Assembly (NCBI GenBank): GCA_013372925.1 | Contig: JABXIV010000148.1 | Span: 1 to 43,511, forward strand | DNA from: Alphaproteobacteria bacterium | GTDB taxonomy: Bacteria > Pseudomonadota > Alphaproteobacteria > Sphingomonadales > Kordiimonadaceae | DNA length: 43,511 nt | Direction of reading: 5' to 3' | Part shown: positions 4,038-43,511 of the stretch, one piece after another | Position numbering within the stretch: position 1 is the stretch's first letter | Layout: each line of letters begins with the position of its first letter | Notes under the pieces: generated by a model | Database searches by the model: none | The model's input: only the letters and a program-made list of their open reading frames with translations | What the model was told of the DNA's origin: nothing | Position numbers and translations under genes: made by a program

Positions 4038-4862
4038 ATGGACTTCTTTAAAACAGATGATTTCGATATCGATAAATTCGTGGCCTATGCCACCGAATTT
4101 GGCATTACTATTCTTGCGGCACTTGCTGTTCTTATCATCGGGCTTTGGCTCGCAGGCGTTGTTGAGCGCCGCCTGAATGCTTTTTTCAAAAAAAGCGACA
4201 AGATCGATGTAACCGTTTCAAGCTTTTTGGCGAGTCTTGCCAAATATGTGGTCGTTGCCTTCACGGGCATCGCGCTTCTTGATCAGTTCGGGGTGGAAAC
4301 CACAAGCCTTGTGGCTGTCCTTGGTGCGGCAGGCCTGGCGATTGGCCTCGCGCTTCAGGGTACGCTGTCAAACCTCGCGGCAGGTGTGATGCTGCTGATT
4401 TTCCGGCCATTCAAGGTTGGTCAATTTGTGGAAGTGGCGGGTCATGCGGGTACAGTGAAAGGCATCAGCTTGTTTATGACCAAGTTGGATACCGGCGACA
4501 ATGTGCGCATCACCATTCCGAACAACTCTGTGTGGGGCAGCTCGATCCGCAATTTCAACCATCATGATACGCGCCGCCTTCAGATTGTTTACGGCATCGG
4601 GTATGGCGATGATATCGACAAAGCCATGGAAGTGATCAAAGGCTGCATTGAGGCCGACGAGCGCTGCATGAAAGACCCAGCACCAGTGATTGCTGTGACA
4701 TCCCTTGGCGAAAGCTCGGTGGATATTATGGTGCGTGTGTGGTGCGCGTCAGGCGACTATTGGGCGCTGAACTGGCACTTGCTGAAAACTGTGAAAGAAC
4801 GATTCGATGCAGAGGGGATTTCCATTCCGTTCCCCTGCCGGACTGTTTATCAATCTGCCTAA
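4038..4862 (+). CDS. MscS-family small-conductance mechanosensitive channel
   Basis: TM3-like 'VLGAAGLAIGLALQGTLSNLAAGVMLLIFRPFKVGQFVEVAGHAGTV', then the beta domain 'ITIPNNSVWGSSIRNFNHHDTRR'. Confidence 0.96.
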   Translation: MDFFKTDDFDIDKFVAYATEFGITILAALAVLIIGLWLAGVVERRLNAFFKKSDKIDVTVSSFLASLAKYVVVAFTGIALLDQFGVETTSLVAVLGAAGLAIGLALQGTLSNLAAGVMLLIFRPFKVGQFVEVAGHAGTVKGISLFMTKLDTGDNVRITIPNNSVWGSSIRNFNHHDTRRLQIVYGIGYGDDIDKAMEVIKGCIEADERCMKDPAPVIAVTSLGESSVDIMVRVWCASGDYWALNWHLLKTVKERFDAEGISIPFPCRTVYQSA

Positions 4863-33646: not shown

Positions 33647-34324
33647 ATGAAGAAATTAATTGGTGCCTTTGCACTGACACTTGCGTTAGCGCCGGCCTCA
33701 TTAGCGCAGGAAAGCGCCCTTGAATTTGACGGCTATGTGGGACTGGCGAGTGATTTTCGTGACCGTGGGTTAAGCCTTTCGGCAAAAGACCCGGTGTTTG
33801 TGGCATCTGTCGGCGCGTTTCACGAGAACGGCCTTTATGGCGGGATCGTTGGCGCTTATCTGGGCGAGGACGGCATTGGTGACGCCAAGGCCGAATTCTA
33901 TGCCGGATACCAGATGGACCGTGGTGATTATATCTACGATTTCTCAGTGGAGCTGGATAGCTATCATGGCGACACAAGCAAGTATTTCCCTGAGTTCAAG
34001 GCGACTGTAGCGCGTGATTTCGGGCTGGCGTTCATTCGTGGCGGCGCCGCATATTCGCCCGATGGCCGCTGGAGCGATCCTGACAGGGACAGCTTCTATC
34101 TATATACCGATCTTGAGGTGCCTGTGCCGAACATGCCTGAGCTGACCATCATCAGCCGTCTTGGGTATGACATGCGCCAGGACCGTACCAACGTGTGGGA
34201 CTGGGGTATTGGCGTAAGCGTATTTATTAATCAGATTGAACTTAGCGTTATGTATGAAGATAGCGGCCGTGACAGCGATATGGGTACGGGCGCAATCGTC
34301 GCCGGGGCGCGGTTTTACTTCTAG
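33647..34324 (+). CDS. TorF-family putative porin / outer-membrane protein
   Basis: Signal peptide '[21 protein letters not shown]'. '[48 protein letters not shown]...EFYAGYQ'. C-terminal Phe. Confidence 0.85.
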
Positions 34325-36462
34325 TCAGCAGCCTTGGGTGTGATGTGCGGCAGGGTGCGTGCGGCAGGGAACAGCATTGTTACTGTCGTGCCCACGCCCT
34401 TCTCGGATGCAAGTTCAAGCATACCGCCATGCAATTCCATAAGGCTTTTTACGAGGGGAAGGCCAAGGCCCGTACCTTCGTGGCTGCGTGTCATTGTGGA
34501 GCCTGCCTGACCGAAGGGCGTGAGGGCAACTTCCAGCTCTTCCGCAGTCATGCCTATGCCGTTATCCCTAACCTTCACAACAATGCTGCCTGCCTGGTTT
34601 ACTTCAGCGTCCAACTGAATGGTGCCATCGCGGTTGGTGAACTTGACGGCATTGCCGACAACATTCAGCAGGATTTGTTTAAACAGGCGTCTGTCGCCAT
34701 GCAGGATTGGGAGATCTGCAGGACACTGAAGGGTGATTTTGACATTTTTTGCGCTGGCTCTTGGGGTCATCAGCGTTGAAATATCATCAAACAAGTCGGC
34801 AATATTGATGGGTTGCTCTTTAAGGATCAACCGACCCGATTCCACTTTCGACAGGTCCAGAATATCGTTGATGATGTCGAGAAGCAGTTTGCCGCTTTCA
34901 TTGATATGGCCGACATATTCGTCGTATTGTGGGGCACCCAGCTTTCCGAAAACCTGATGCTCCATCATTTCCGAGAACCCCAGAATGGCGTTCAGCGGAG
35001 TCCTCAGTTCGTGGCTCATGTTTGCCAGGAATTCCGATTTTGCCTGATTAGCCATTTCTGCTTGCTGCATGCTGCGTTTGAGCGCGCGATTGTGCCGCTG
35101 CTGCATCATCAAGAGCACGATTGCGCCAACTGCGATAAGGGCGGCAAGGGCAATCGCCAGTCGGGTATAGGCTTGTTGGGCCTCTTCAAGGGCGGCCTCA
35201 GCCCGCTGTTTGGCAAGCATGGTTTCCAGGCTTGAACGCAGGTCCGTGATACTGCTTTGAAACTGTTCGAATTGGCTGTTTAACAGTTCCCTGCGTGCTT
35301 CATTTAGCAGTTCAAACGCCTCTGCATATTTGCCTTCTGCTTGTAGGATATAGGCAGAAGCCAGCATGTTGCTGCCGTGGTTTTCATCGAGTTGATAGTC
35401 AGGATGTTCCTTATAGAAGCTTTGCACCTTGTCCTGATAGAAACGGGCTTTTTCGGCGTCACCCAAGCGGGCATAGCTAACTGTCAGCAAGTCATAGAAG
35501 GCGATGTTGAAGCCAGGCTCACTGGAGAAAGAGGCTAGGGCTTCATTCGCTAGGTCAATGCTTTCCTGATAGTTTTCTTCATCATATGCAATCCAGGCTA
35601 GCCCGAATAATACATAATATCGGCCCGTATCACGTCCGGTTTGCTCAATAACTTCACCAAGACCCCGATAGAATTTCTTGGCAAGGTCATTTTCTTTCAG
35701 GTTGTTCAATGTAGATGCAATATTGAAAAGGGCGGACTCGCGGTCAAAGGCAATGCCTTCTTGTTCTGCTATTTCAAGGGCTTTGCTATAATTTTCAATT
35801 GTTGCATCGATTTCATCGACGCCAGAATAGGTATAGGCCAACGTCAGGTAGGCCAGCATGCGCATGCGGTTGCCGCGCCGTGTATCTGGCAATGTCAGAA
35901 CGGCTTGCGACATGGTGGACAAGCCTTCAAGGAAGTTGCCTAGTTCAGGACCAAGGATCGCCATTGAGGCTTCTGTAAAGAAGACGCCGAGCGGGTCACG
36001 AATGTCTTCAGCAAATTTTCGGGTAGCTTCAATTTTGTCCCGGGCTGCAAACAGCTCTCCCGACAAGGACAGGAACGTCGCCTCTGCTAGATCGCCATAA
36101 ATTTTAAGCTCGTTATCGCCCAGTTTTTTGGCCAGAGCTATGGCCTCCTGCGAAGCCCATTCAAGATCGGCAGGGTCTGCAACGTCCACATAGTGGAAAA
36201 TCAATTCCTTGAGAATTTCAGCTTTGTCACCAGGAGGCAGGTCTTTTTCTAACCTGCTTTTCAGAAGGGCGATATGAAGATGAGCGTCTGCCGATTTAGC
36301 TGCAACGATTTCGGGCAGGATTTCCAAGGCTTTGGTTCGCGCTTCCGTGCTAAGTTTGCTCGTGGCAAAACCCGCAGCCGAGAAGGCAAACGCGCCAAAA
36401 ATGACAACCAGCAAAGCTCTAAAGGCTCGCCCCAGCCAAGATTTCAGGATCAGATTGCTCAT
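34321..36462 (-). CDS. TPR-repeat sensor histidine kinase
   Basis: N-terminal hydrophobic segment, TPR-like repeats, TM '[21 protein letters not shown]', H-box '[27 protein letters not shown]', G-boxes '[13 protein letters not shown]' and '[11 protein letters not shown]'. Confidence 0.94.
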
Positions 36463-37451: not shown

Positions 37452-38795
37452 TTATCCTGCTCCGGCGACGGTCAATCCTTCCACCCTCAGGGTCGGCGCA
37501 TTGGTGCCGTATCGGAATGACAAGTCTGATGCTGGCACAAGATGCCTGAACATTTCCTTAAGGTTGCTTGCGATTGTGAACTCGCTGATGGCTTCAGCCA
37601 ACTGGCCATCACGGATGCGGAAGCCTGCGGCGCCACGGCTGTAGTCACCCGTTACACCGTTCACGCCCATGCCGATCAGCTCGGTTACATAGATGCCGTC
37701 CTTGATGTCGGCCATCAGTTCGGCCGGGCTCAGGGTTCCTGCCGCCATATAAAGGTTGCTTGGCGAAATTCCCGGCGCGGACGACGTGCCGCGGCTGGCG
37801 TGGCCTGTTACTTCAAGGCCAAGCTGGCGGGCAGCGGATGCGTTTAGCATCCAGCTTTTCAAAACACCATCTTCAACGATATTGCATTTGCTGACGCGCA
37901 CACCTTCCCCATCGAACATGCGGGAACTGAGGCCACGCACCATAAGGGGATCATCGGTAATAGTGATGCCGGGTGCGAAGATTGCCTCCCCCATTTTTTC
38001 CTGCAGGAAGCTGCTTTTGCGTGCAACACTTGCGCCATTCACGGCGCCAGAAAAGTGGCCAACAAGGGATTTGGACACGCGCGGGTCATACACGATTGTG
38101 TATTTGCCGCTGGCCATGCTTTTTGCGTTCAGGCGCTTTACAGCCCGTTCGCCTGCTTCCCTGCCAACCCATTCGGCAGTGTCCAGGTCTTCGAAATGGC
38201 GGGCGCTGGTAAATTCATAATCCCGTTCCATGCCTGTGCCTGTACCAGCAACCGCAGAAGAGGAGATGGAAAAGCTGCTGCCGCGATAATGGCCGGAAAA
38301 GCCATGGCTCGTGACAAGGGAAATCGCCCAAGTGCTGCTGCCGGCACCGGCACCGGATGAATTGGTTACCCCTTCAACAGCGCGTGTTGCATCCTCTGCT
38401 TGTTGTGCAAGCTCGGTCAGCTTTTCGGCGGAAACTTCTGTGTCGTCATAGAGGTCAAGCTCGGCAACTGGGCCCGTGTGCAGTTTTTCTTCAGGTGCCA
38501 GTCCACAAAAGGCGTCTTCCGGCACGGCCTTGGCCATATCGATGGTGCGGGCCACCAGTGCTTTCAGGGCTGCGGGCCGCCGGTCGCTCGTGGAAACCAT
38601 GGCTTGCTGTTTGCCGATCATTACCCTAAGGCCGATGTCTTCGCCTTCCGATCCGTCCACGTCCTCAAGTTTTCCTTCGCGCCAGGAAACGCTTTTTGAC
38701 GAGGCGTCAACAGCAACTGCATCTGCTGCATCCGCACCGGATTTCATCGCATTTGAAACCAGATCCTGCAGCAGGTTGAGCGTATTATCGGTCAT
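37452..38795 (-). CDS. pmbA: TldD/PmbA-family metallopeptidase component
   Basis: 'SVSWREGKLEDVDGSEGEDIGLRVMIGKQQAMVSTSD', 'RMFDGEGVRVSKCNIVEDGVLKSWMLNASAARQLGLEVTGHASRG', 'VTGDYSRGAAGFRIRDG'. 6 nt upstream of cysQ. Start revised to ATG 38795. Confidence 0.94.
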   Translation of the reverse strand: MTDNTLNLLQDLVSNAMKSGADAADAVAVDASSKSVSWREGKLEDVDGSEGEDIGLRVMIGKQQAMVSTSDRRPAALKALVARTIDMAKAVPEDAFCGLAPEEKLHTGPVAELDLYDDTEVSAEKLTELAQQAEDATRAVEGVTNSSGAGAGSSTWAISLVTSHGFSGHYRGSSFSISSSAVAGTGTGMERDYEFTSARHFEDLDTAEWVGREAGERAVKRLNAKSMASGKYTIVYDPRVSKSLVGHFSGAVNGASVARKSSFLQEKMGEAIFAPGITITDDPLMVRGLSSRMFDGEGVRVSKCNIVEDGVLKSWMLNASAARQLGLEVTGHASRGTSSAPGISPSNLYMAAGTLSPAELMADIKDGIYVTELIGMGVNGVTGDYSRGAAGFRIRDGQLAEAISEFTIASNLKEMFRHLVPASDLSFRYGTNAPTLRVEGLTVAGAG

Positions 38796-38895
38796 GGAAA
38801 GTCCTTGGGAAAACAACGGAAATCTTGCTGGCCAATAAGCCACATAACGGCGAGCCGTTCAATGGTGTTCTGCAAGGATTGTCAGCTATTGGCGG

Positions 38896-39786: not shown

Positions 39787-39965
39787 AAATTTCCCCTATC
39801 CCTGATCTGACGGCAGCATATCATAGCGCGGCGGTTGGTGCCTAGCTGCGTTAGGGTGTCGCGATCGCCTCTGTTTCAGTCATAAAACTGGAAAAAACAC
39901 CGCAAATAGCGTATGACGCGCCGCAAATACCCATTGGTTGTGGGCAAGGTGTGCGAGTGAAAGCG

Positions 39966-41696
39966 ATGACTGAAAAAGAAATGACCGTTAAAACAGCAAC
40001 CGGGCGGCGCTCTGAACTGTTGATGCCTGCGGGCAATCTGGAAAAGCTGAAAGCGGCCGTGCTTTATGGCGCGGATGCGGTGTATCTGGGCACGCCGGAT
40101 ATGAGCCTGCGCACCAAGTCAGCCTTCTCGCTTGAAGAGGTTGTTGAAGGGGTTCAGTTTGCACACGCGCACGGCAAACGGGTTTACCTTACGCTCAACC
40201 TGTTTTCTCACAACAAGGACATCACCAAGCTGCCGCAGTATCTGGAAACAGTGCGCAAGGTGAAGCCGGATGGCCTGATTGTTGCCGATCCCGGCGTTTT
40301 CATGTTTGTGAAGGAACAGGCACCAGAGCTTGAGCTTCATATTTCCACGCAGGCGAACGTATGTTCATGGCAGTCGGTCAAATTCTGGGAGAATTTGGGC
40401 GCGGGGCTTGTGGTGCTTGGCCGCGAAGTATCCTTCGAAGAACTGAAGGAAATTCGCGAGAAATGCCCAGGCATCAAGCTTGAAGCCTTTGTTCATGGCA
40501 GCATGTGTATGACCTATTCTGGTCGCTGCATGCTTTCAAATTTCATGGCCGAACGCGGTGCTAACCAGGGGGCGTGCGCCAACAGTTGCCGCTGGAAATA
40601 CAAGGTGCATATGCGACTGAAGGACGGCACCGTGAAAGAGCTTCCGCTTACTGAAGAGAACCTTGAGCTGTTCGAATTCCTGATCGAGGAAGAATACCGC
40701 CCCGGTGATCTGCTGCCGATCGAGGAAGACCAGCGCGGCACCTATATCCTGAACAGTAAAGACCTGTGCATCATGCCAAAGCTGAATGACCTGTTGTCGA
40801 TTGGTGTGGATAGCCTGAAGGTCGAAGGCCGTGGCAAAAGCCCATACTATGTTGCCATGGTGGCCCGGGCCTACCGCATGGCGATCGATGCCTGGTATGA
40901 AGACCCTGAAGGCTGGTCGGCTGATGCCTACATGAAAGAACTGAACACAGTGCCCTCACGGGGCTACACGCTGGCGTTCCATGATGGCCGGTTGACGAAC
41001 TATGCCCATGGCTTTGAAGACACATACACGCTGGCCGATCATGAATATGCCGGGCTTGTGGAAGAGGTTACCGACGATGCCTTCATCGTGCGGGTGAAGA
41101 ACAAGCTGGTTGCTGGTGATGTGGTTGAATTTGTGCCGCCAAGTGCGCGTGAACCGATGCTGCTGCGCGTTTATGAATTTGAGAATGCCGCAAACGGCAA
41201 GGTCACAGCAGAAGTGCATGCGGGCAACACACCGCTTATTCGCTTGCCGTTCAGCCTGTTTGATCAGGAAACCACTGAAAGCCTGAAGGCTGATTTCCCG
41301 GCTATGACGGTGTTGCGCAAGGAGAAGGCTCTGACGGAAGACCAGTGGGCGCGGCTGAAGCTGGATGCGGAAGCAAATGCACTTGAACAGGGGCGCGGCA
41401 ACGCGGCTGTGTATGAGCAGAAGCGTGAAAAGCTGCAAGGTGCGCTTGATGAACGCCGGTCAGAGCTGCGCTTGCGCACACCTCGCCGTGGTACGGAAGG
41501 CTGTTGCGGCAAGGGCTGTAACGGCTGCTTGGTGTTCTGGCACGACGACAAATACGCAAAAGCGCGGGAAATTCTGGCGAAAAAGAAACAGGGCGAGATG
41601 CTTGCCCGTAAGCTGACCGACGAAGACATCGCTGCCCTGGAGGCCGAGGCTGCATCTGATGAACACGCAGCCGACGTACAGCAGGTCACGGCCTAA
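39966..41696 (+). CDS. U32-family peptidase (TrhP/YegQ-like) with Cys-rich C-terminal extension
   Basis: 'LLMPAGNLEKLKAAVLYGADAVYLGTPDMSLRTKSAFS', 'EAFVHGSMCMTYSGRCMLSNFMAERGANQGACANSCRWKY'. C-terminal 'EGCCGKGCNGCLVFWHDD'. Start revised to ATG 39966. Confidence 0.95.
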   Translation: MTEKEMTVKTATGRRSELLMPAGNLEKLKAAVLYGADAVYLGTPDMSLRTKSAFSLEEVVEGVQFAHAHGKRVYLTLNLFSHNKDITKLPQYLETVRKVKPDGLIVADPGVFMFVKEQAPELELHISTQANVCSWQSVKFWENLGAGLVVLGREVSFEELKEIREKCPGIKLEAFVHGSMCMTYSGRCMLSNFMAERGANQGACANSCRWKYKVHMRLKDGTVKELPLTEENLELFEFLIEEEYRPGDLLPIEEDQRGTYILNSKDLCIMPKLNDLLSIGVDSLKVEGRGKSPYYVAMVARAYRMAIDAWYEDPEGWSADAYMKELNTVPSRGYTLAFHDGRLTNYAHGFEDTYTLADHEYAGLVEEVTDDAFIVRVKNKLVAGDVVEFVPPSAREPMLLRVYEFENAANGKVTAEVHAGNTPLIRLPFSLFDQETTESLKADFPAMTVLRKEKALTEDQWARLKLDAEANALEQGRGNAAVYEQKREKLQGALDERRSELRLRTPRRGTEGCCGKGCNGCLVFWHDDKYAKAREILAKKKQGEMLARKLTDEDIAALEAEAASDEHAADVQQVTA

Positions 41697-43511
41697 CGTT
41701 GGCTGACCTTATTGTGGCTCAATAGGTTGGAGCGCTGGTACCCGTATCTGTCCAGCTCCTGCGCCAGAGCCAAGGCGCGGTCTTGCTCGCCAAGAAGGTT
41801 GTAAGCCACAGACAGTGTTTCCTTGCCCACAAGGTCGATGCTTGAACTGGAGTTCTCCAGCAGATCAACCAGTTTTTGCCACTGCGTTTTTGCTGCCTGT
41901 TCCTTGCCGTTATCAGCCAGCAACTGGCCATAAAAAAGTCGCGTATCTGCCAGATGTTCTTTGGTACCGGCCATTGTCAGGTAGGCAGTATCTTTTTGTT
42001 CTAATTCGGCAAGCAGGGCCACCAGCTTTTGCTGGGAAGCACTCGTGTCACCCTTTGCATGGTCAATTTCGGCTTCCAGGGATTGCGTGCGGTGGTATGT
42101 CAGCCACCTTTGGGGGCGAGTATTGTCGCGTTCCAGTGCTTCTGTGATTTGAAGCTTGGCCTTTCTCTGATAGGTAGCTGCTGTCTCCAGGTCCTGCAAT
42201 AGAAACGCGCTCTGGGCGAGATTAATTTGGCCCTTGGCAGAATCGCCAAGCCACAGCGTATTGCTTGGGTCTTTCTGGGTCAGGATATCAAATCCATCTG
42301 CTATTTCTCGCCTCAGATTATAGGCTTTGGCTTGCTCTCCGCGTAATTGGGCAATCTTGGCCAGCGCCTCTTTCGAGGTAAGAATTCTACGGAAAGCTCG
42401 TGAATTTTTGGGGTTTTGGGCCACAAGTGCTTCGAAAACTGCTTGTCGTCTCGCGAATAGTTTCTCAGCTTTGTCAAGCTGCCCAAGCAATAGATATGTA
42501 TCGGCTGCGTAATAATAGGAACTGCCCAGATTATATGGGTACCCATTGGGGTTCCGATCTTTCGGTGGCATTTTCTCAAGGATTTCGATGCTCGATAAGG
42601 CCAGTGGTAACGCTTCTTTTGGCTTGTTTTTGGGGCCTGCCAACACATTTGCAAGGCTTCGCAGTGAATCCGACATGGCAACTGCCCAGACTGATGCCTG
42701 CCCAACATGCGTTGTTTCCATGAAAGTGAGATTGTCGCGTTGTTTGTAAGCCTCTGAGTTCAGTGCCAGCCTCTCTCTGTAGTTTTGTTCTGCATCATCA
42801 AAACGCCCCTGCCTTCGGGCCAAGTAACCAGTAAAAAAGAGGTTGTTTTGAAGGCGAAAGGTTGCTTCAAAGCTGTTGGGATATTGCTCGTAAAAATCGC
42901 GAGACAAAACAAGCACCTGATCGAAGATTTCTCGAGCTTTTATACTGTTGCCTTGGCGGTCAAGGTTTTGCCCGTATCTAAGCATGGCTCCGGTGTAGTG
43001 ATAAATTTGTTCAACAGTTAACGTTTCCAGGTCTCTTTTGTTAAAAGTTTCAAGAACTCTGGTTGTAACGTTCTCTAGTGTCTTGAGGTCTCCGTACTCC
43101 AGCATTTTGTTGTACATCTCGGTCATGATGTAATGAAGCAGGTCATCGTTCATCACCAGCTGCTTCTGCATTTCGGATCGCTGGTTTTCGGCAATTGTCC
43201 GGGCTCTCGCGGCCTCTTCTTTGGCAACTTCCGCACGGTAAGTGAGCGTGCCCATGACTGCCATGCCCAAGGTTGAAGCTGCGATGAAGGCGGTCAGTTT
43301 TTTGTGCCTGCGCTGATCTTCCCTGCGGACAATGTCGTTCAACCCTACACCGATGAGGCCAGCAATGACCTTGATCAAGGCCATGCGCTTGCCATCGCCT
43401 TCTGGGCGCAGGTCAGCCGCAAGGCCTTCTGCTGACAGGCCTGCTTTCTTGCCATCTGCCATGAAGCTGTGGCGCAATGCTTCGGGGAAACACTCCTCTT
43501 CCGGGTTGTCA
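41693..43511 (-). CDS. TPR-repeat membrane protein, truncated at right edge; probable C-terminal part of a TIR-domain (TIR-TM-TPR) protein
   Basis: The frame stays open from TTG 43477 to the window end, adding 'DNPEEECFPEA' upstream of 'LRHSFMADGKK...EGLAADLRPEGDGKRMALIKVIAGLIGVGLNDIVRREDQRRHK'. A TM 'LTAFIAASTLGMAVMGTLTY' and helical repeats follow. No TIR fold is visible in this window. Confidence 0.75.
   Translation of the reverse strand, partial: DNPEEECFPEALRHSFMADGKKAGLSAEGLAADLRPEGDGKRMALIKVIAGLIGVGLNDIVRREDQRRHKKLTAFIAASTLGMAVMGTLTYRAEVAKEEAARARTIAENQRSEMQKQLVMNDDLLHYIMTEMYNKMLEYGDLKTLENVTTRVLETFNKRDLETLTVEQIYHYTGAMLRYGQNLDRQGNSIKAREIFDQVLVLSRDFYEQYPNSFEATFRLQNNLFFTGYLARRQGRFDDAEQNYRERLALNSEAYKQRDNLTFMETTHVGQASVWAVAMSDSLRSLANVLAGPKNKPKEALPLALSSIEILEKMPPKDRNPNGYPYNLGSSYYYAADTYLLLGQLDKAEKLFARRQAVFEALVAQNPKNSRAFRRILTSKEALAKIAQLRGEQAKAYNLRREIADGFDILTQKDPSNTLWLGDSAKGQINLAQSAFLLQDLETAATYQRKAKLQITEALERDNTRPQRWLTYHRTQSLEAEIDHAKGDTSASQQKLVALLAELEQKDTAYLTMAGTKEHLADTRLFYGQLLADNGKEQAAKTQWQKLVDLLENSSSSIDLVGKETLSVAYNLLGEQDRALALAQELDRYGYQRSNLLSHNKVSQR

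Follow-up and report, generated by a model that had tools for sequence, protein, structure and literature searches.

The stretch of DNA analysed here (the window) is 43,511 bp long and is the entire contig C192 of a draft Kordiimonas genome, G000, that has 309 contigs and is 81% complete. Its right-hand end cuts through a minus-strand gene, raising the question of what the whole gene encodes and whether its product belongs to signalling or to defence. The frame is open from 41693 to about 43510/43511, the window edge, a total of 605 codons encoding the protein DNPEEECFPEALRHSF... The listed TTG start at 43477 is internal to this longer frame, and an earlier note on this DNA was right to reject it as the true boundary. 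Pfam identified only TPRs (TPR_12 and TPR_2) in the part encoded by the window. The note had also predicted that a TIR domain would be encoded beyond the edge.

When the 5' end of the gene was searched against the G000 genome, one other place matched: contig C292 (L005), whose final 140 bases are identical to the right end of the window and continue it in frame. An overlap of 140 is what an assembly k of 141 would leave (k-1), and C192 and C292 would thus appear to be neighbours in the assembly graph. The joined frame has no stop just past 43511 and stays open to an ATG at L005:7367, ahead of which is GGGGGAG, giving a protein of 728 aa and supplying the missing upstream part (Table 1). An artefact of contig joining can be ruled out, since six relatives of the same genus have the orthologue on single contigs, with the same gene order and architecture, and the join is therefore neither chance nor chimeric. 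On those contigs the gene is flanked by ubiD and, on stretches long enough to show it, by pmbA, a gene of the inositol-phosphatase family and a TPR-histidine kinase on the opposite side, in agreement with the arrangement given by the window joined to C292. The neighbours encode UbiD, U32, DLH-like and PmbA proteins, and the U32 peptidase gene has its counterpart at the corresponding position in the related genome G005. Kordiimonas gwangyangensis DSM 19435 carries an orthologue (L073); the species is represented by a marine environmental strain.

Table 1. Features of the locus, with window coordinates unless a contig is named
Feature	Position	Strand	Basis
TIR-TM-TPR gene, 3' 83% (residues 124-728 of 728)	41693..43511	-	open frame, contig overlap, single-contig orthologues
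TIR-TM-TPR gene, residues 1-123	L005:7367-7735 (G000:C292)		140-base contig overlap
Conserved TIR-to-membrane linker, residues about 124-192, ECFPEALR...LAADLRPEGDGKRMALIKVIAGLIGVGLNDIVRRE	43305..43510	-	at least 98% conservation of named residues
Single transmembrane helix, residues about 194-213, N-side strongly basic	43242..43301	-	hydropathy, charge bias
Membrane-proximal helical stalk, continuous with transmembrane helix	43092..43241	-	one predicted helix, window-protein residues 57-139
TPR solenoid, predicted periplasmic sensor	41696..43091	-	TPR_12 + TPR_2, helical-repeat model, Foldseek
U32 peptidase family, convergent neighbour, 93% identical in G005 locus	39951..41696	+	Pfam, synteny
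PmbA/TldE-type metallopeptidase, far border of variable site	37452..38843	-	Pfam, synteny, empty sites
ubiD, near border of variable site	on C292		synteny

Residues 11-120 of the completed protein match TIR_2 with 46 bits (cut-off 28; E 8.7e-12), and in the same protein ThsB_TIR PF08937 scores 38.4 bits against a cut-off of 21.2. The AlphaFold (AF2) model of an orthologue that is 75% identical (L072; pLDDT 88) has PDB matches in Foldseek to the TIRs of TLRs, plant NLRs, SPARTA, AbTir and SARM1, with a probability of 1.00. Both by fold and by Pfam cut-off the upstream domain is thus a TIR, as predicted, and a Ser/Thr kinase or winged-helix N-terminus, either of which had been named as contrary to the prediction, is ruled out by the Pfam match. 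This is the only TIR_2 protein in the G000 genome.

Box 1 is intact in the window protein (YKAFISYS). In an alignment of 109 relatives, AF.SYSH of box 1, FRD, S93 and E99 show little or no variation, the conservation of box 1 and FRDR being partly selected because both served as search patterns; E99 was not a pattern. The TIR catalytic Glu, for which the earlier note suggested looking, is present as E99, which is at the helix C catalytic position, is found in 109/109 relatives, and aligns by profile with the helix-C Glu of the flax L6 TIR, the position of the NADase Glu. The WxxxE motif is used by bacterial TIR NADases. Its Trp, at position 95, is present in 87 of the 109 relatives, is Arg in another Kordiimonas clade, and is Leu in every one of the 12 records (7 genomes) that make up the window clade, which thus lacks the Trp of a cADPR-producing TIR NADase. 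The suggestion that the protein is of NADase type is upheld as regards the Glu and is only partly supported overall, because of this Leu; from its sequence, an NADase output is plausible.

In AbTir, W204 is required for the cyclic product, and TIRs that produce cADPR show strong conservation of this Trp (PMC11374754; PMC10937652). It is conceivable that Trp loss might abolish catalysis altogether, given that W204A lowers AbTir NADase activity (PMC11374754; PMC10937652) and that the equivalent Trp of SARM1, W638, is important (PMC8266388), in contrast to W240 of TcpC, which is dispensable (PMC11374754). The TIR would then be a catalytically inactive assembly scaffold, as in TLR/MyD88, its clustering recruiting another protein with no use of NAD+. 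Replacement of the Trp in two Kordiimonas clades, the AbTir mutant, and the presence of non-enzymatic TLR TIRs among the top Foldseek matches are all in keeping with a scaffold; however, E99 is retained in every Leu- and Arg-bearing sequence and TcpC manages without its homologous Trp, and a scaffold is considered rather unlikely.

Between the TIR and the membrane, linker residues A154, D156, D162, G163, K170, G174 and R186 are at least 98% conserved in the 109 relatives and, with R158 included, the linker matches the TIR core in conservation. This agrees with the note's association of the linker with proteobacterial TIR-TM-TPR proteins. The single transmembrane helix and long TPR region that had been described are evident by hydropathy, Pfam and predicted structure. 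The structure prediction for the window part has one long helix through the membrane and then a TPR solenoid (pLDDT 85), which in Foldseek resembles generic TPR solenoids. The 12 residues before the helix contain on average 4.8 K+R versus 1.9 in those after it, the N-side being higher in 98 of 105 relatives, and net charge is +3.7 on the N-side versus -0.1 on the C-side. With this charge bias as the sole basis, the positive-inside rule predicts a cytoplasmic TIR and periplasmic TPRs. Most well-studied TPR solenoids are cytoplasmic, and a TIR-TPR protein, PDB 9m0n, is annotated without a membrane part; a cytoplasmic TPR part here, reading an internal signal while the helix merely anchors the protein, is nevertheless very unlikely in view of the charge bias and of a single helix that has the TIR on its N side.

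Three relatives (L066, 3868-7080; L068, 121-4974; L050, 1629-4412) have the same TIR-linker-TM arrangement, with a long repeat domain replacing the TPRs. From its sequence repeats this domain looks like a WD40-like beta-propeller, the Pfam scan of L066 having covered the N-terminal part only. An interchangeable ectodomain on a common TIR-linker-TM is as expected for a modular receptor. In L050 the N-terminus occurs a second time, as a truncated copy at 4326-4584.

The architecture, the topology bias, the invariant Glu, the loss of the Trp and the absence of a partner gene are observed features of this locus. The explanation that we favour, at somewhat better than even confidence, is an orphan single-pass inner-membrane TIR receptor in which a periplasmic TPR part would sense and clustered TIRs would signal, most likely by NAD+ cleavage. 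The predicted order from the cytoplasm outward would be N-terminal TIR, linker, one transmembrane helix, helical stalk and periplasmic TPR solenoid. The TPR part may bind a periplasmic or envelope-derived ligand, and binding would shift the oligomeric state via the stalk. The clustered TIRs would then signal, most likely through cleavage of NAD+ by Glu99, as its invariance suggests. Since Leu replaces the WxxxE Trp in this clade, the TIR would be expected to hydrolyse NAD+ mostly to ADP-ribose, or to be only weakly active, and not to make a cyclic ADPR messenger; such a non-cyclic output fits the absence of a SLOG-like or cyclase partner beside the window gene.

A profile search of genome contigs, with the alignment as query, confirmed family members in at least 480 genomic stretches, from Alpha- and Gammaproteobacteria, Verrucomicrobiota and Planctomycetes. 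Few plasmid relatives were found. The database label of the relatives is 'toll/interleukin-1 receptor domain-containing protein'. Like the TIR-TM-TPR proteins of K. gwangyangensis, Phenylobacterium, Sphingomonadales, Rhodanobacter and Verrucomicrobiota, the window protein has the TIR, the AAD.R..DG linker (AAD.R..DG..K..AG in its longer form), one transmembrane helix at about residue 195 and a repeat ectodomain that define the family. The window clade differs from the family at large in having Leu for the WxxxE Trp and no SLOG-like or cyclase neighbour. A gene for a TPR-S and middle domain protein, mostly with a class III nucleotide cyclase domain, adjoins the TIR gene at 11 loci of the Kordiimonas-order set and at 16 of 80 of the wider set; at the Kordiimonas loci a Crp-type regulator is usually next. 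Seven further loci have a neighbour with a SLOG-like domain and membrane helices. Profile comparison pairs this SLOG-like domain with the middle domain found in the cyclase protein (96% probability), but the SLOG-type hint from Pfam is weak (DNA_processg_A, E 0.0045).

The Trp is kept in 34 of 34 TIR proteins with a SLOG-like or cyclase neighbour, and none of the 12 Leu-bearing records of the window clade has such a neighbour. In 58 further proteins, many on short contigs, there is a Trp without a detected neighbour. With few clades involved, the association of Trp and partner is a correlation over no more than a handful of events. A search of the G000 genome gave no homologue of the cyclase protein, and none adjoins the window gene; at 81% completeness an unlinked partner may be missing from the assembly, and a TPR-S match on contig C99 was below cut-off. 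This is a natural experiment, the Trp being kept with a SLOG-like or cyclase partner and lost without one in the window clade, by which the connection of WxxxE with cyclic ADPR and with downstream signalling can be tested directly. A wider reading would be an envelope-sensing, immune-type family with swappable ectodomains (TPRs or propeller-like repeats) and two outputs, in which Trp-bearing members make cyclic ADPR that acts through the SLOG-like-cyclase protein on the Crp-type regulator, and the Leu- or Arg-bearing clades, that of the window among them, have gone over to an output without a partner. This we regard as doubtful.

Cassettes of TIR-TM-TPR, TPR-S/SLOG-like/nucleotide-cyclase and Crp-type regulator genes are seen in L062 (5412-7854), L063 (9168-11417), L065 (9114-11339), L036, L058, L060, L061, L064 and L067. 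Several have a small gene after the TIR-TM-TPR gene, which in L065 is pNTSase1. The TPR-S and pNTSase1 families reportedly stem, in all likelihood, from Burroughs and Aravind 2020 (J Bacteriol). The TIR-TM-TPR/TPR-S-cyclase cassettes of the relatives have no PADLOC match, and they look like a predicted cascade from TIR to cyclic-nucleotide signalling. In L106, L148, L091, L101 and L125 the neighbouring gene encodes a SLOG-like domain and, after it, several membrane helices that look SLATT-like by eye, possibly a messenger-gated membrane effector. The Arg-bearing Kordiimonas clade (L041-L044 and L046-L049) is a separate TIR-TM-TPR clade at another conserved site, which contains genes for a winged-helix regulator, a response-regulator-like protein and a sensor-like protein.

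Among known systems, Thoeris is similar in that the window TIR matches ThsB_TIR and relatives adjoin SLOG-like genes, SLOG being the fold with which ThsA senses cADPR (PMC11204291). The window protein differs in being a membrane receptor with a TPR ectodomain; ThsA (SIR2-SLOG) is not among the adjacent genes, and a STALD search of G000 was uninformative, its controls matching nothing either. With AbTir, TcpC and SARM1 it shares the TIR fold and the catalytic-position Glu, but it has Leu for the WxxxE Trp and another architecture. Animal TLR/IL-1R proteins are likewise single-span receptors with a repeat or modular ectodomain and a cytoplasmic TIR, and TLR TIRs are the top fold and profile matches. 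In the window protein the order is reversed, with the TIR N-terminal, and the ectodomain is TPR rather than LRR/Ig; nothing indicates that the two descend from a common receptor. Bacterial TIR-TPR and TIR-NLR proteins (Group 6 TIRs, PMC7075850; PDB 9m0n) also have an N-terminal TIR and C-terminal TPRs. The Group 6 TIRs are mainly actinobacterial and without conserved boxes 1-3 (PMC7075850), whereas the window protein retains box 1 and has a membrane helix between the domains. The searchable open-access literature, as distinct from subscription papers, in which an earlier bioinformatic mention is possible, contained no bacterial TIR-TM-TPR receptor or single-span cytoplasmic-TIR receptor with an outward sensor. 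Hundreds of such receptors are present in genomes under a bare domain name, apparently as a large, unstudied receptor family, for which a completed gene, a conserved linker and a predicted topology are now provided.

In the ubiD-pmbA interval the gene is present in 7 Kordiimonas genomes and absent beside ubiD in 8, close relatives among them. About five presence/absence changes are required on the flanking-gene tree, with clustering no greater than for shuffled labels, and the TIR tree conflicts with the flanking-gene tree in grouping G006 with G014. Between the window and G005, identity is 95% for UbiD, 93% for U32 and 83% for PmbA, and within the protein it is 75% for the TIR, 72% for the linker, 47% for the stalk and 43% for the TPRs. 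Judged by these comparisons, this is a variable site with a putative fast-evolving sensor. Fast divergence of the ectodomain fits a receptor for changing ligands and could also be relaxed constraint; dN/dS for TIR versus TPR is not estimable, as synonymous sites (dS) are saturated between the window and G005.

Such patchiness at a fixed site, the diverging ectodomain, the partly conflicting TIR relationships and the domain type are what might be expected of an anti-phage abortive-infection receptor, in which a phage-triggered envelope event would activate NAD+ depletion by the TIR and the cell would die. Against this, the window gene has only weak, TIR-level similarity in PADLOC and no full-length defence model, its 10 neighbours have no convincing PADLOC match, searches of 50,697 phage records and of viral contigs gave no relatives, and the gene occupies one chromosomal site genus-wide, which is atypical of a mobile defence island. 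Abortive infection is considered quite improbable. The earlier note had seen here a candidate defence or signalling system: the TIR, transmembrane and TPR architecture supports a signalling receptor well, and the defence part is unsupported by neighbours, phage records or viral contigs.

Adjoining the variable site is a TPR-histidine kinase hybrid (window 34324-36462) that is 69% identical to that of G005, compared with about 83% for IMPase and PmbA. PADLOC matches of this kinase to PDC-M43B and CARF were weak and partial and have been disregarded. In G007 the 3' end of ubiD recurs as a partial copy (L178:2321-2437) downstream of the intact ubiD, which is consistent with a scar of gene exchange at the ubiD-pmbA site.
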